From Gemmatimonadota bacterium (GTDB lineage Bacteria; Gemmatimonadota; Gemmatimonadetes; Gemmatimonadales; GWC2-71-9), in the NCBI GenBank assembly GCA_016874005.1, contig VGVQ01000015.1, positions 1 through 64,000 on the forward strand: 64,000 nucleotides of DNA, read 5' to 3'. Of the stretch, positions 18,389 to 25,371 are shown one piece after another. The notes beneath the pieces were generated by a model that worked only from the letters and a program-made list of their open reading frames with translations, made no database searches and was not told the DNA's origin. The translations under genes and the position numbers were made by a program. Within the stretch, counting starts at the first letter, position 1, and each line of letters opens with the position of its first letter.

Positions 18389-19426
18389 GTGACCGTCCCG
18401 CATCCAGCGCCCGGATCCGGCCCCGTGGTGGTGCTGACGCCGGTACGCAACGAAGCTTGGATCCTCGACCGATTCCTCGCGGTCACCTCGCGGTTCGCCG
18501 ACCGGATCATCCTCGCCGATCAAGGGTCCACCGACGATACCCGGGCGATCGCGGCCCGCTACCCCAAGGCGCTCGTCATCGACAACGACGATCCCGGTTT
18601 CGACGAGGCCCGGCGCCAGAAACTGCTGCTGGACCGGGCTCGGGCCGAAGTCCCCGGTCGCAAGGTGCTGCTCGCCCTCGACGCCGACGAGATTCTCGCC
18701 GCCAACGCCCTCGAAGGAGCCGGTTGGCGGACACTGCTCGCGACCCCGCCCGGCACCATCCTTTGTTTCGAGTTGGTCGATCTCTATCTCACCACCGACC
18801 GATGCCTTCGGCACGAGCGGTGGCGACCGTTCGGGTACGTCGACGACGGTGCCGAGCACCAGGGACGGCCGATTCACAGCGGTCGAGTGCCGCTCCCAGC
18901 CGGCGCGCCCCGGCTCAAGTTCAACGACATCACCATGCTCCACTATGCCCCGCTCCGAACCTCGGCGATGGCGGCGAAGCTGCGGTGGTACAGCGTGGTG
19001 GAGAACGTCCTGGGTACCTGCCCGCCGGTGTTCAAGCGCCGGCTCCGCTATCTCAACCACATCGACTTCACCGGCGACGGCCGATACGAGCCCAGCCGGG
19101 CGGAGTGGTTCCGGGGCTGGGAAGCGATGGGGATCGACATGCACACGGTGTCGGACCCGGAGTACCACTGGCACGATATCGAGGTGCTCCGGGCGTTTGC
19201 CCGCTACGGGACCCGGAAATTATGGCTCGACGACGTCTGGCGATTCGACTGGGACGCCTGTTGGCGCTGGGCCACGGCCATCGGGGCGCCGGGGATCCCG
19301 AGCGGGCCGATTCGACCGGCGCCCGATTGGCTGGTGTGGACCATGCGGACGTTAGGCTACCTCCACCGTCACCAGGTCTGGCTCCGGCAGCGTCTCTCGG
19401 GACGGCGGAGCCGGCGGCTCCCATGA
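18389..19426 (+). CDS. Glycosyltransferase family 2 protein
   Basis: A 345-residue GT-A fold glycosyltransferase. The nucleotide-sugar site shows VVVLTPVRNEAWIL (about 12-26), ADQGSTDDT (43-51) and the metal-binding DADEIL (98-103). The C-terminal half is rich in Trp, Arg and Tyr and has no clear membrane segment, so it is probably a cytosolic or membrane-associated enzyme acting on a surface glycan; acceptor unknown. GTG 18389 is favoured because a TATCTT box ends seven bases upstream; a GTG at 18347 in frame would place the box inside the gene. Its TGA overlaps the antiporter ATG. Confidence 0.82.
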   Translation: MTVPHPAPGSGPVVVLTPVRNEAWILDRFLAVTSRFADRIILADQGSTDDTRAIAARYPKALVIDNDDPGFDEARRQKLLLDRARAEVPGRKVLLALDADEILAANALEGAGWRTLLATPPGTILCFELVDLYLTTDRCLRHERWRPFGYVDDGAEHQGRPIHSGRVPLPAGAPRLKFNDITMLHYAPLRTSAMAAKLRWYSVVENVLGTCPPVFKRRLRYLNHIDFTGDGRYEPSRAEWFRGWEAMGIDMHTVSDPEYHWHDIEVLRAFARYGTRKLWLDDVWRFDWDACWRWATAIGAPGIPSGPIRPAPDWLVWTMRTLGYLHRHQVWLRQRLSGRRSRRLP

Positions 19427-20862
19427 CCAGTTTCGATCCCGCCACCTTCGCCACGACGCTGGCCACCATCGGCGTCGTCATCCTGGCGGCCAGCCTGCTC
19501 TCGGGCGTGGTGGAGAAGCGGGCCGTGCCCCCGGTCGCGGTCTTCTTGCTCCTCGGCTTGGCGATCGGGCCGATGGGGCTCGGCCTGCTCGATGTGGGCC
19601 TCGCGTCGCCTGCCCTCGCGATCATCGCGACCTTGAGCCTGACCCTGGTGCTCTTCACCGACGCGCTCACGATCGACGGCAAGGAGGTGATCAGGAACCT
19701 CCGGCTCGCGGTGCTGGTGCTCGGTCCCGGGACCCTGCTGACGACCACCCTGGTGGGCTTCGCCGCCTGGTGGCTCCTCGACCTGTCGCCCGCGTTGGCC
19801 GCCATCCTCGGTGCCGCGCTCGCGAGTACCGACCCGGTGATGATGCGGACCCTGTTGCGTCGTCCCGGCATTCCCGGTTCGGCGAGGATCGCGCTCGGCG
19901 TCGAGAGCGGGCTCAACGACGTCGTGGTCCTCCCGATCGTCCTGGTCGCGATCGTGTGGCTCGGCCCGACGCCGCCGACCCTTGCGACGGTCGGGCTGGT
20001 GGGACTCAACGTCTTTTTGCTCGGCCCGGCGGTTGGCGCCCTGATCGGGTTCGTCGCCGTGCGGCTCCTCGTCTCGGTTCGACAGCGCTACGGGGTTCGG
20101 CGGGATTACGAGTCCCTCTACGTCGTCGGAGTGGCCTTCGCGGCCTACGCCGCCGCGGAAGCGCTCCACGCCAGCGGATTCATGGCGGCGTTCGCCGCCG
20201 GGCTCGCGGTGGCGCTGCTCGACGTCGAGCTGTGCGACTGTTTCCACGACTACGGCGAGGCGACCTCGGAGATGTTCCTCCTGTTCGCCTTCGTGGCGGT
20301 GGGCACCTCCCTGATCTGGACCGGGCTCGAGGTCGTCAGCGCACCGGTGCTGGCGTTTGCGGCCGTCGCCCTGTTCGGCCGATCGCTGGTGCTGTGGATC
20401 GCCCTCCGGGGACAAATCGAGCCGGAGGCGAGGCGCTACGTGGTATGGTTCGGCCCCCGAGCCCTGAGCTCGCTCTTGCTCGTGCTCTTGCCATTCTTCG
20501 CCGGGGTCGATCGGGCCGCCGAGCTGTTTCCCGTCGTGGCGCTGGTGGTCTTGCTCTCGGTGGTGGTCCACGGCGCCATGGTCATGGTCTGGCACGGGCG
20601 GCTCGTCCACGCGGTGACCAGCGGCGGCCGGGGCGACCGAGCGTTGGTGACGAGCGGCGAGCTGATCACCATGGAGGAGTACCGCGCCCTGGTGCAACAA
20701 CAGCAACCGATCCGGATTCTCGACGTTCGGTCGGCGGGGAGCTATCGCGGGGCCGACCTCCAGGCGACCGGCGCGGTTCGGATCCCGCCGGACCGCGCCG
20801 TCGAGAGCGCGGCGGAACAGGCGCTGCCGAAGCACGACTGGCTGGTGGCGTACTGTGCCTGA
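19423..20862 (+). CDS. Cation:proton antiporter (CPA1/NhaP type) with rhodanese domain cut by an in-frame TGA
   Basis: A 479-residue frame. Residues about 1-400 form 12 or so membrane helices of a CPA1 Na+/H+ exchanger; typical segments are GLAIGPMGLGLLDVG, ASTDPVMMRTLL and GVESGLNDVVVLP (ion-site Asp residues). From about residue 415 a cytosolic rhodanese domain begins (ITMEEYRALVQQQQPIRILDVRS) and reaches WLVAYCA, where TGA 20860-20862 stops the frame just after the catalytic Cys478. The same frame continues with 48 domain-like codons (separate entry). The product is therefore either a truncated rhodanese, a nonsense mutant, or a recoded selenoprotein. ATG 19423 overlaps the glycosyltransferase stop (ATGA). 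Confidence 0.85.
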   Translation: MTSFDPATFATTLATIGVVILAASLLSGVVEKRAVPPVAVFLLLGLAIGPMGLGLLDVGLASPALAIIATLSLTLVLFTDALTIDGKEVIRNLRLAVLVLGPGTLLTTTLVGFAAWWLLDLSPALAAILGAALASTDPVMMRTLLRRPGIPGSARIALGVESGLNDVVVLPIVLVAIVWLGPTPPTLATVGLVGLNVFLLGPAVGALIGFVAVRLLVSVRQRYGVRRDYESLYVVGVAFAAYAAAEALHASGFMAAFAAGLAVALLDVELCDCFHDYGEATSEMFLLFAFVAVGTSLIWTGLEVVSAPVLAFAAVALFGRSLVLWIALRGQIEPEARRYVVWFGPRALSSLLLVLLPFFAGVDRAAELFPVVALVVLLSVVVHGAMVMVWHGRLVHAVTSGGRGDRALVTSGELITMEEYRALVQQQQPIRILDVRSAGSYRGADLQATGAVRIPPDRAVESAAEQALPKHDWLVAYCA

Positions 20863-21009
20863 ACGAACGAAGCGACAAGCGCCCGGGTGGCGCGAGAGCT
20901 GAGAATCGCGGGCTGGAAACGAGCGAGGGCGCTGGTCGGAGGCTGGGAGCGGTGGGTGGCCGAGGGCCTCCCGACCGAGCCGATTCCGACCGGGAACGAT
21001 CGGGAATAG
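20860..21009 (+). other. Read-through extension completing the rhodanese domain after TGA
   Basis: After TGA 20860-20862 the frame stays open for 48 codons to TAG 21007-21009. It begins TNEATSARVARELRIAGW and later contains ALVGGWERWVAEGLPTEP, the standard end of single-domain rhodaneses (final helix with GGxxxW). Homologous fusion proteins usually read YCxCPNEATSA here, so the TGA occupies the second Cys of CxC and the next codon is Thr instead of Pro. What is seen is the open, domain-like frame; recoding is a hypothesis. Confidence 0.7.
20879..20893 (+). other. SECIS-like hairpin downstream of the in-frame TGA
   Basis: GCGCC (20879-20883) pairs with GGCGC (20889-20893) around the loop CGGGT. 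The loop starts 21 bases after the TGA and has G at its second position. Bacterial SECIS models ask for a short stem, a loop of 3-14 bases with G in the first two positions, and a spacing of about 16-37 bases. Hairpins of this size are common in GC-rich DNA, so this is only consistent with, not proof of, selenocysteine insertion. Confidence 0.3.
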
Positions 21010-21122: not shown

Positions 21123-22340
21123 GTGCCCGAACACGCCTTCCACAACCCGGACTTTCTCTGGCGGAACCCCGACCCGAAACCGAGCTACGACGTCATCGTC
21201 GTGGGCGGCGGACTGCACGGATTGGCGACCGGGTATTACCTCGCGAAGAACCACGGGATCGCCAACGTCGCGGTGGTCGAACGGGCCTGGCTGGGCAGCG
21301 GAAACGCGGTCCGGAATACCACCATCATCCGCTCCAACTACCTCCGCGACGAAAGCGCCGCGTTGTACGAGCATTCGCTCAAGCTCTGGGAGACGCTCGC
21401 CGAAGCCCTCGACTACGACCTGCTGTTCGATCAGCGCGGCGTGCTGCAGCTCCACCACTCCCAGGCCGACGTCCGGAGCGGAACCCGACTGGTTCATGCC
21501 CTCCGCCTGAACGGCATCGACGCCGAGTGGCTGGATACCGAGAGCGTCAAGGAGTTCTGTCCCCTGATCAACACCTCGCAGGACATTCGGTATCCGGTGG
21601 TCGGTGCCTTCCTCCAGCGGCGTGGCGGCATCGCTCGTCACGACGCGGTGGTGTTCGCCTTGGCCCGAGCCGCCAACCGCTTGGGCGTCGATCTGATCCA
21701 GGATTGCCAGGTCACCGGGTTCGAGAAGGCTGGCGACCGGGTCACCGGGATCGTGACGAGCAAGGGACGAATCGGTGCCGGCCGGATCGGGTTGGTTGGC
21801 GCGGGCCGGACACCGCTGTTGGCGGCGATGGCCGGGTTTCCGGTGCCGATCCAAAGTTCTCCGCTCCAGGCGCTGGTCTCGGAGATCGTCGATCAGGTGC
21901 TCAACTGCGTCGTGATGTCGAGCGGGGTGCATGTCTACCTGAGCCAGGCCCACAAGGGTGAGCTGGTCATGGGGGCGGGCCGGGACGGGTACACCTCCTA
22001 TGCCCAGCGGGGCTCGTTTCACATCATCGAGCAGCAGGTGGCCGACGCCCTCCAACTGTTTCCGCTGTTCGGCCGGATCCACCTGCTTCGGACCTGGGCC
22101 GGAATCGTCGACGTGGCGCCCGACGCCTCGCCGATCATCGGTCCCACCCCGGTGGAGAACCTGTTCCTCAATTGCGGCTGGGGCACCGGCGGATTCAAGG
22201 CGACCCCCGGGTCGGGCTGGGTCTTCGCCGACACTCTCGCGAATGGCCGCCCCCATCCTCTGGTCGTCCCGTTTGGCCTCGACCGATTCGAGCGGGGCGA
22301 CTTGCTCGACGAGCACGGCGCTGCCGCCGTGGCCCACTGA
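21123..22340 (+). CDS. soxB: Sarcosine oxidase beta subunit
   Basis: A 405-residue FAD-dependent oxidoreductase, the catalytic subunit of heterotetrameric sarcosine oxidase, which demethylates sarcosine to glycine. The dinucleotide fold is [38 protein letters not shown] and [17 protein letters not shown] (His that carries covalent FMN in the family) identify Sox[18 protein letters not shown] closes the FAD site. GTG 21123 is the start; no ATG lies near and the Shine-Dalgarno site is weak. Its TGA overlaps the soxD ATG. First gene of soxBDAG. Confidence 0.92.
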
Positions 22341-22612
22341 TGCTCCAGATCCGTTGCCCCTGGTGCGGTCCGCGCGACGAGCCGGAGTTCCGCTACGGCG
22401 GCGAGGCGCACCTTCGCTTCCCGGGGAACGAGGCGGACCCAGCGGCCTGGGCGAGGTTCCTCTACTATCGCGATAACCCAGCCGGGGCCTACCGCGAGCG
22501 GTGGGTGCACACGGCCGGCTGCCGCCAGTGGTTTCACGTCATCCGCGACACCACCAGCCATCGGATTCTCGGTTCCTACCGACTCGATGAACCGCCGGAG
22601 CGGGCGCGGTGA
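22340..22612 (+). CDS. soxD: Sarcosine oxidase delta subunit
   Basis: A 90-residue zinc-binding small subunit. CPWCGPRDEPEFRYGG near the N-terminus and the later HTAGCRQWFHVIRDT supply the Cys/Cys/His/Cys-type zinc ligands of SoxD. Length matches the family (about 90-100). ATG 22340 overlaps the soxB stop (TGATG) and the stop overlaps the soxA GTG (GTGA), so translation is coupled. Confidence 0.92.
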   Translation: MLQIRCPWCGPRDEPEFRYGGEAHLRFPGNEADPAAWARFLYYRDNPAGAYRERWVHTAGCRQWFHVIRDTTSHRILGSYRLDEPPERAR

Positions 22613-25371
22613 GGCGGCTTCGGCCCGGCACCGCGACCGACCCCGCGAAGCCGCTCTCGTTCCGGTGGAACGGCACGGCGTTCGACGCCTTGGCCGGCGA
22701 CACGCTCGCCTCGGGACTGCTGGCCAACGGCGTTAGGGTCGTCGGCTCCAGCGTCTCCTTCGGGCGCCCGCGGGGAGTGATGAGCGCCGGCTTAGAGGAG
22801 GCCCACGCCTTCGCCCAGATCGGCGAGGGCGGTGCCTCGGAACCGCTGATGCGGGCCACGACAGTCGACCTCCACCACGGGCTGGTGGCCCGGGGGCTGT
22901 CGACCAAGGGAACGCTGGTCCAAGGCGACGATCCGGCCCGGTTCGAAAAGCGTCATGGTCATTGCGACGTCCTGGTGGTCGGTGGCGGCCCGGCCGGACT
23001 GGCCGCGGCCTGGGCGGCCTCCGCGGGCGGGGCGCGAGTCATCCTGGTGGAGACCACCGCCCGCTGGGGTGGCGCGCTCGGTCGCGACCTCGAGCTGATC
23101 GACGGCGCTCCCGCGCTGGCCTGGGTCGACCGGATCACCAGGGACCTCGCGGCCCGCCCCGAGGTGACCGCGCTCCGGCGCACCACGGCGGCGGTTTCGC
23201 TCGACCAAAACGGCGTCGTCCTGGTGGAACGCCTCCCCGAGACCACCCCGCCCGATCGGATCAGGCCGATCCGCCGCCTGTGGCAAGTCCGAGCTCGGGC
23301 CGTGGTCGTCGCCACCGGGGCGCTGGAGCGCGGGGTCGTCTTCCAGGACAACGATCGCCCCGGCGTCATGCTGGCCAGCGCGGTGCGGAGCTACTGGCAT
23401 CTTCACGGCATCGCGCCGGCGACGGTGGTGCTGTTCACGACCAATGACGACGGCTATCGCACCGCGTTCGACCTGGTCGAGGCAGGGGTGTTGGTCCGAG
23501 TGCTCGATGCCAGGGAGTCGATCGGTCCGGTCGGCGAACAGGCTCGGGCCCGGGGCATCGAGGTCCTGAGTAACGCCGTCGTCGCCGGCACCCGGGCCGA
23601 CCAAGCCGGGCTCCTCGCGGCGGCGAGGTTCCAAGCGGGCCGCCGCCAAGGAGAGTGGCCCTGCGAGGTACTCGCGGTCGCCGGCGGCTATCAACCGCTG
23701 CTCGATCTCCCGGCCCAGCGACCCGACCAGAGCCACCGAATCGTCGGTGCGGCCGCCGGCCAATGGTCGCTGGCGGAGTGCCTCCTCGATGGGCTCGATG
23801 CGGGAGTGGCCGCGGCCGAGGCGGTCGGCTTCGGCAGCCCGGGTCCGACCCGCCCGGTGGTTGGCCCGGACTGGGACCGGTCGCCGGGGACGACGCTCTG
23901 GCAGGTGCCGGCTCCCGATGGTGACGAGACCCGGTCGTTCGTCGACCTCCATCGCGATGTCACCGTGGCCGGCCTCGATCGAGCCCTCGGAGCCGGAGTC
24001 CGCTCGGTGGAGCACCTCAAGCGCTACACCCTGGCCGGCACCGGTATCGAGCAGGGCAAGAGTGCCAAGGCGGCGGCGGGGGCCATCGCCAGCGACCGGC
24101 TCGGGTCAGAGAAGCCCCTCGGAGTCTCCACCGGACGCCCGCCCACCGAGCCGATCGCCTTCGCCCTCCTGGCCGGCCGGGCCCGCGGCGACCTCTTCGA
24201 GCCGGTTCGCACCACCCCGGCCCACCCGGCCCACGTCGCCGCGGGCGCGGTATTCGAGAACGTGGGACAGTGGAAGCGCCCGAGGTACTTCCCCCGGCCC
24301 GGTGAAACGATGGCTGAGGCGGTGGCCCGCGAAGCCCGGGCGGTCCGGACCGGGGTCGCGATCATGGACGCGAGTACGTTAGGCAAGATCGAGGTCCAGG
24401 GAGCCGACGCGGCGGAGTTCCTCGACCGGCTCTACCTGAACCGGCTCTCCAGCCTCAAGGTGGGCCGAGCCCGATACGCGGCGATGTGCCGGCTCGATGG
24501 GACCGTGTTCGACGACGGCGTGGTGATGCGGCTCGCCCCCGACCGGTTCTTCGTCACCACCTCCACCGGCCACGCCGCCAGCGTGTTCGAGTGGATGGAA
24601 GAATGGCGTCAGACCGAGTGGCCCGACCTCGAGGTCTGGACCACCTCCACCACCGAGCAGTGGGCCACCTACGCGGTCGCCGGGCCCCAGGCCCGAACGG
24701 TCGTCCAATCCGTGGCGCCGACCTGCGACCTGTCGCGGGAGGGTTTTCCGTTCCTGGGGGTACGCCCCGCCACCATTGCCGGCATCGCCGGCCTGCTCGC
24801 CCGAGTGAGCTTCTCCGGCGAGTTGGCTTTCGAAGTGATGGTCCAAAGCCGCCACGGGCTCGCGGTATGGAACGCCCTGCTCGAGGCCGGAACGCCTCTT
24901 GGCATGGCGCGGTACGGTCTCGAGGCCCTCAGCCTGCTCCGGGCCGAGAAGGGCTACCTCATCGTGGGCCAGGACACCGACGCCGACACCTCCCCGATCG
25001 ACGCGGGCCTCGGCTGGATGATCTCGGACAAGGATTTCCTCGGCCGGCGATCGCTGGAGATGGCAACCCATCGCCGGTCGGATCGGAAGCAACTGGTGGG
25101 GTTCTTGCCGAGCGATCCCGCGATCGTCCTCCCGGAAGGCGCCCAGTTCGTCGCCGACCCGACCCAGCCGAAGCCGATGACCATGATCGGCCATGTCACC
25201 ACCAGCCATCCGAGTCCGACGTTAGGCCGCTCGTTCGGCCTGGCCCTCGTTCGGGGTGGCCGCGATCGGATCGGTCACATCGTGCACGCGCCGCTCGAGG
25301 ACCGGACGGTCGCCGTCGAGATCGTCGATCCGGTGTTCTACGACAAGGCGGGGGCCCGCCGCGATGGCTAG
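22609..25371 (+). CDS. soxA: Sarcosine oxidase alpha subunit
   Basis: A 920-residue subunit. An N-terminal ferredoxin-like segment (FDALAGDTLASGLLANGVRVVGSS) precedes an NAD-binding domain with DVLVVGGGPAGLAAAWAAS (about 120-140). The C-terminal half (about 530-920) is a folate-binding aminomethyltransferase (GcvT-like) domain that takes up the released one-carbon unit as methylenetetrahydrofolate; markers are AEFLDRLYLNRLSSLKVGRARYAAM and LEALSLLRAEKGYLIVGQDTD. GTG 22609 is inferred from the overlap with soxD. It overlaps soxG by eight bases. Confidence 0.93.
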   Translation: MRRLRPGTATDPAKPLSFRWNGTAFDALAGDTLASGLLANGVRVVGSSVSFGRPRGVMSAGLEEAHAFAQIGEGGASEPLMRATTVDLHHGLVARGLSTKGTLVQGDDPARFEKRHGHCDVLVVGGGPAGLAAAWAASAGGARVILVETTARWGGALGRDLELIDGAPALAWVDRITRDLAARPEVTALRRTTAAVSLDQNGVVLVERLPETTPPDRIRPIRRLWQVRARAVVVATGALERGVVFQDNDRPGVMLASAVRSYWHLHGIAPATVVLFTTNDDGYRTAFDLVEAGVLVRVLDARESIGPVGEQARARGIEVLSNAVVAGTRADQAGLLAAARFQAGRRQGEWPCEVLAVAGGYQPLLDLPAQRPDQSHRIVGAAAGQWSLAECLLDGLDAGVAAAEAVGFGSPGPTRPVVGPDWDRSPGTTLWQVPAPDGDETRSFVDLHRDVTVAGLDRALGAGVRSVEHLKRYTLAGTGIEQGKSAKAAAGAIASDRLGSEKPLGVSTGRPPTEPIAFALLAGRARGDLFEPVRTTPAHPAHVAAGAVFENVGQWKRPRYFPRPGETMAEAVAREARAVRTGVAIMDASTLGKIEVQGADAAEFLDRLYLNRLSSLKVGRARYAAMCRLDGTVFDDGVVMRLAPDRFFVTTSTGHAASVFEWMEEWRQTEWPDLEVWTTSTTEQWATYAVAGPQARTVVQSVAPTCDLSREGFPFLGVRPATIAGIAGLLARVSFSGELAFEVMVQSRHGLAVWNALLEAGTPLGMARYGLEALSLLRAEKGYLIVGQDTDADTSPIDAGLGWMISDKDFLGRRSLEMATHRRSDRKQLVGFLPSDPAIVLPEGAQFVADPTQPKPMTMIGHVTTSHPSPTLGRSFGLALVRGGRDRIGHIVHAPLEDRTVAVEIVDPVFYDKAGARRDG

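Follow-up and report, generated by a model that had tools for sequence, protein, structure and literature searches.

A CPA1-type antiporter with a predicted selenocysteine-containing rhodanese tail in Gemmatimonadota

Results

An in-frame TGA in the rhodanese tail of an antiporter gene

In the 64,000-nucleotide stretch of Gemmatimonadota DNA that we analyzed (contig VGVQ01000015.1, referred to here as the window), an in-frame TGA at positions 20860–20862 of the forward strand is almost certainly decoded as selenocysteine (Sec), as judged from sequence comparison. The gene that carries it (19423–21009, same strand) is predicted, from its sequence and from an AlphaFold model, to encode a CPA1-type monovalent cation/proton antiporter with a cytosolic C-terminal rhodanese tail bearing a Cys-x-Sec motif. 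The assignment draws on the read-through translation, on matches to PF00999 and PF00581, and on orthologues of like architecture. To the Sec reading, combined with a role of the CxU domain in redox or sulfur chemistry, we assign a probability of about 0.85. It is the comparative evidence, and not the open frame or the hairpin alone, that gives the TGA its significance.

The gene starts with an ATG at 19423 and ends with a TAG at 21007–21009; its read-through frame (19423–21006) specifies 528 residues, with Sec at position 480 and 48 codons beyond the TGA. Residues 23–387 (19489–20583) make up the antiporter transmembrane domain, which matches PF00999 with 121.7 bits against a gathering score of 26.2, and residues 417–513 (20671–20961) make up a rhodanese domain (PF00581, 34.1 bits). 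The codons TAC TGT GCC TGA ACG AAC GAA GCG, quoted in a first-pass annotation of the window, are read directly at 20851–20874, and the PF00581 match, which spans the TGA, bears out its statement that the 48 codons past the TGA complete a rhodanese. The loop of this domain reads Y-C478-A-U480-T-N-E-A-T-S-A-R, where Cys478 (TGT, 20854–20856) is the active-site-loop cysteine, conserved in all aligned fusions and placed two residues ahead of the Sec. In DNA this rich in GC, 48 codons without a further stop would be expected by chance in about 33% of cases, and for this reason the open frame beyond the TGA is weak evidence by itself. The source genome is a 3.88-Mb draft, 97% complete. Downstream of the antiporter gene and in the same orientation (21123–25371), the translations of several genes resemble, by eye, subunits of sarcosine oxidase; these genes are not conserved beside the fusion in other genomes.

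The antiporter part and its relatives

The antiporter part has a DP motif at residues 137–138 and an E161-S162..N165-D166 motif, located in columns that are invariant or nearly so in the family alignment (A2). Asp137, Glu161, Asn165, and Asp166, which correspond to the N-D type of acidic, ion-binding residues in the core, are invariant across this alignment. In the AlphaFold model, the antiporter part matches PaNhaP, NHE1, SOS1, SLC9C1, and KefC, with Z scores of about 30–38 over about 380 residues; the best-quantified match of the predicted fold is with PaNhaP (Z of 37.6 over 381 residues, r.m.s. deviation of 3.5). The PRK05326 K+/H+ antiporter models (NF003714-NF003716) give at best 114.9 bits, below their equivalog cut-off of 355.

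The protein resembles NhaP and YcgO/CvrA (CPA1) and KefC (CPA2) in having the same transmembrane fold, the E-S-x-x-N-D motif, and a C-terminal tail, but its tail is a rhodanese, unlike theirs, and not an RCK/KTN or CorC domain. The tails of YcgO and KefC are cytosolic and carry an RCK or other regulatory domain: that of Escherichia coli YcgO is cytosolic after residue 383 (PMC11808508), and in KefC exchange is controlled by glutathione adducts bound to the tail (PMC10224563). AlphaFold models the rhodanese part poorly, with a block pLDDT of 30–73; in this low-confidence region, Cys478 ends a strand (E473-478) and Sec480 would lie in the loop between that strand and a helix, an arrangement also found in active sites of rhodaneses.

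Conservation of the TGA among fusion copies

We surveyed 201 related genomes and 395 genomes spread over the phylum Gemmatimonadota, two sets that overlap. Every other long fusion copy with a readable loop (21/21) has TGA at the homologous codon and none has Cys; two partial copies (G017 and G149) likewise have TGA. The long copies are 50–69% identical to the query and come from several genera in three families of the phylum. The 25 aligned sequences used below are those of 22 long and two partial fusions and of a stand-alone rhodanese (G020). The frame past the UGA is open for 41–54 codons in every aligned fusion copy. Right after U, the UGA-bearing sequences vary freely (T, K, M, R, N, Q, H, V, P, or L), so the replacement of Pro by Thr in the query, counted by the first-pass annotation as a doubt, poses no problem. 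That only the Sec form of the fusion is seen in the phylum hints that Cys may serve less well at this position.

A contig scan reaching close relatives only yielded one fusion copy, in a Gemmatimonadales metagenome-assembled genome (L044), the other matches covering the antiporter part only. In G176 (L028), the antiporter is followed by a broken or replaced rhodanese, and the reading runs into unrelated sequence after the linker.

A covarying hairpin and constrained codons past the UGA

The hairpin GCGCC-CGGGT-GGCGC (20879–20893) lies 17–31 nucleotides downstream of the TGA, exactly as first described, with a five-base stem and a CGGGT loop. Its pairing, its covariation, and a covariance model indicate that it is the apical hairpin of a SECIS element; its spacing and loop are in agreement with those of bacterial SECIS elements. 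A hairpin of this kind, taken alone, is unremarkable in GC-rich DNA. Across the 25 sequences, 99.2% of the cells are paired, compared with 19–74% when the pairing is shifted by one to three columns. Two pairs change on both sides, from C-G to U-A in G007 and G020 and from G-C to A-U in G018 and G198. These two-sided changes alter the encoded amino acids, turning TSARVAR into TSVRVTR or TSTRVVR, and the A-U state requires at least two origins on the protein tree, with a G-U intermediate present in the sister of one of them.

A covariance model built on the 54 nucleotides from the TGA gives this site, which is part of the training set, 73.9 bits against 17.7 bits for the next one in the genome. 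The model also matches six stand-alone UGA rhodaneses, L119 only weakly (E = 0.065), while L116 is the same sequence as G020 and is also in the training alignment. None of four further rhodaneses searched, of the Cys type or another, was matched by the model, and an Rfam search around the TGA returned nothing above threshold. An additional stem that would lengthen the hairpin outward (columns 12–14/39–41 and 17–18/36–37) was considered and rejected: it is weaker, with 87.6% of cells paired, and adds no covarying pair.

Codon divergence at positions +1 to +14 past the UGA averages 1.18 bits versus 0.22 elsewhere in the gene (p = 4.7e-7), and these codons also differ from the remainder of the rhodanese (p = 6e-6). 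The synonymous constraint is limited to the codons just past the UGA and is strong at codons +3 to +14 (20869–20904). In 13 of 22 cases the Thr codon is ACA, which is rare in these genes (6% of Thr codons), and Ser is encoded by AGC in 22 of 22.

Selenocysteine machinery

A search for selA, selB, selC, and selD, proposed in the first-pass annotation as a check, finds all four in the same genome: SelA scores 434 bits, SelB 303 bits (cut-off 242), SelD 371 bits, and tRNA-Sec (selC) 68.4 bits (cut-off 47), with the anticodon TCA according to ARAGORN. The selD gene has a UGA of its own at the usual Sec/Cys position (HGAGUACKLGQ), and UGA therefore appears to be read as Sec in SelD as well. A strong hairpin is predicted past the UGA of this gene (G000 contig C14:80596-81510; L064, L076). 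SelA is found in all 18 genomes with a long fusion versus 132 of 183 others (Fisher p = 0.004, shared ancestry not being corrected for); in G017, a 72% complete genome with a UGA-bearing partial fusion, no SelA was detected.

Stand-alone rhodaneses and cysteine homologues

CxU rhodanese selenoproteins are an established predicted family (PMC9312934, PMC13188914), represented by the NCBIfam model NF041203, and like them the query has its Sec two residues past the loop Cys. The query combines a rhodanese domain with the YCxU/YCxC loop of NF041203 (rhodanese_LYCAU), and scores 83.5 bits over the whole protein and 87.1 bits over the domain, short of the equivalog cut-off of 115 bits; it is therefore not filed under NF041203 and is treated as no more than a relative that shares the motif. 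NF041203 has 126 positions, about one rhodanese domain, whereas the domain in the query is the tail of an antiporter.

Several families of the phylum also have stand-alone rhodaneses (L100, L101, L110, L116, L119, and L120) whose YCxU loop contains a UGA and which share the SECIS element. All of them score below the NF041203 cut-off, which is exceeded in none of the 395 phylum genomes, and automatic annotation therefore probably misses them. Since all members found in the phylum fall below the curated cut-off, such genes are probably misannotated, and a gene caller that takes the UGA for a stop would truncate the fusion protein.

Homologues with Cys, encoded by TGT or TGC, are more distant from the query than is the UGA family. 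They include a Burkholderia DedA-GlpE fusion with the loop YCACPNE (L123) and a Cupriavidus plasmid gene with the loop YCVCPNEAT (L124), neither of which matches the SECIS model. At the sequence level, this exchange of UGA and Cys among rhodanese homologues is as expected for a selenoprotein. The comparison at the codon that the first-pass annotation had called for thus gives TGA, not Cys, in close relatives and TGC/TGT in remoter ones. Its claim that related fusions read YCxCPNEATSA holds for DedA-rhodaneses and other Cys homologues and fails for the antiporter fusions, all of which have UGA, which suggests that the comparison derived from Cys homologues of the DedA or plasmid type. The DedA-rhodanese (GlpE) fusions of Pseudomonadota resemble the query in joining a membrane protein to a related C-terminal rhodanese, with the loop YCxCPNE; they differ from it in having Cys for Sec and another membrane domain, and the SECIS model does not match them. 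In the plasmid collection, no antiporter fusion was found, only the DedA type and one unannotated Cys rhodanese, and PHROGs gave no match.

Discussion

Decoding of the UGA

The type of CxU rhodanese selenoprotein is already known, and its fusion to an antiporter appears to be new. A 2026 inventory of 119 prokaryotic selenoprotein families includes several transporters, Cu/Zn efflux SO_0444, E1-E2 ATPase, YeeE/YedE, and SaoP (PMC13188914), which, like the present protein, have Sec in a membrane transporter or its subunit. We found no CPA antiporter or rhodanese-antiporter fusion in that inventory, and no description of a rhodanese-antiporter selenoprotein in the open-access full-text literature. 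The fusion adds a covalently attached Sec redox domain to a major ion-transporter family and offers a concrete case where selenium could affect the pH of the cytosol or the balance of ions.

Selenocysteine had been proposed in the first-pass annotation side by side with a fresh nonsense mutation, and it is the Sec reading that the insertion machinery, the TGA in relatives, the compensatory changes in the hairpin, and the synonymous constraint support. In favor of a nonsense mutation, a pseudogene, or a sequencing error truncating the rhodanese domain, Cys homologues exist at this codon and TGC or TGT becomes TGA by a single change. The recurrence of the same TGA in the 21 other long copies, across several genera and three families, nevertheless excludes a fresh mutation or a sequence error, and the open frame, codon constraint, and covarying hairpin behind the TGA also argue against truncation, to which we give almost no credence. 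Decoding as another amino acid, through a reassigned code or a tRNA suppressor, would account for the open frame only and is extremely improbable: TGA is the final stop of this same gene in 17 of the 25 aligned sequences, hence UGA is not reassigned in these genomes, and the genome contains the full Sec machinery together with a Sec-type SelD. In the Sec reading, the hairpin 17–31 nucleotides downstream would recruit SelB carrying Sec-tRNA-Sec, so that Sec480 would be inserted and the ribosome would read on to the end of the rhodanese domain.

In bacteria, termination competes with the insertion of Sec, which speaks for a selenium-dependent switch in which insertion is partial and the gene has a second functional product, a 479-residue antiporter whose rhodanese is incomplete. 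The stop falls after the whole antiporter, so that the short form would retain all transmembrane helices, and G176 retains an antiporter without an intact rhodanese. Against this, the strong conservation of the domain past the UGA fits a need for the full-length product, and we regard such a switch as rather unlikely.

Possible function of the Cys-Sec couple

By analogy with regulated exchangers, selenium-dependent redox control of the antiporter is the likeliest function, although we propose it only tentatively. Cys478 and Sec480 would most likely form a fast redox- or persulfide-reactive couple, giving a selenenyl-sulfide when oxidized. The couple might either sense thiol, polysulfide, or electrophile stress and adjust ion exchange, or perform membrane-tethered sulfur or redox chemistry. 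A more specific and somewhat more doubtful proposal is that the Cys478-Sec480 pair of the attached rhodanese acts as a redox/persulfide switch that opens or closes the CPA1 antiporter, in the way that glutathione adducts act on KefC. Alternatively, Sec would be inserted and the rhodanese would be an independent enzyme (a sulfurtransferase, or a persulfide or peroxide reductase) that is merely anchored to the membrane and leaves transport unaffected. This tethered enzyme is favored by the stand-alone UGA rhodaneses of the phylum, which share the loop and the SECIS element, and by Cys versions fused to the unrelated membrane protein DedA (PMC10127716); it is almost as likely as redox communication with the exchanger and deserves a similarly tentative place. 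The position of the fused domain, which occupies the place of CPA regulatory domains (PMC11808508, PMC10224563), and the retention of the fusion across three families speak instead for redox communication between the rhodanese tail and the exchanger.

Across the fusion genomes, no conserved gene neighborhood pointing to a pathway was found around the fusion. The sole conserved neighbor is a second CPA antiporter gene, which in one genus adjoins the selenoprotein fusion in divergent orientation (L081, L082, L089, and L090).
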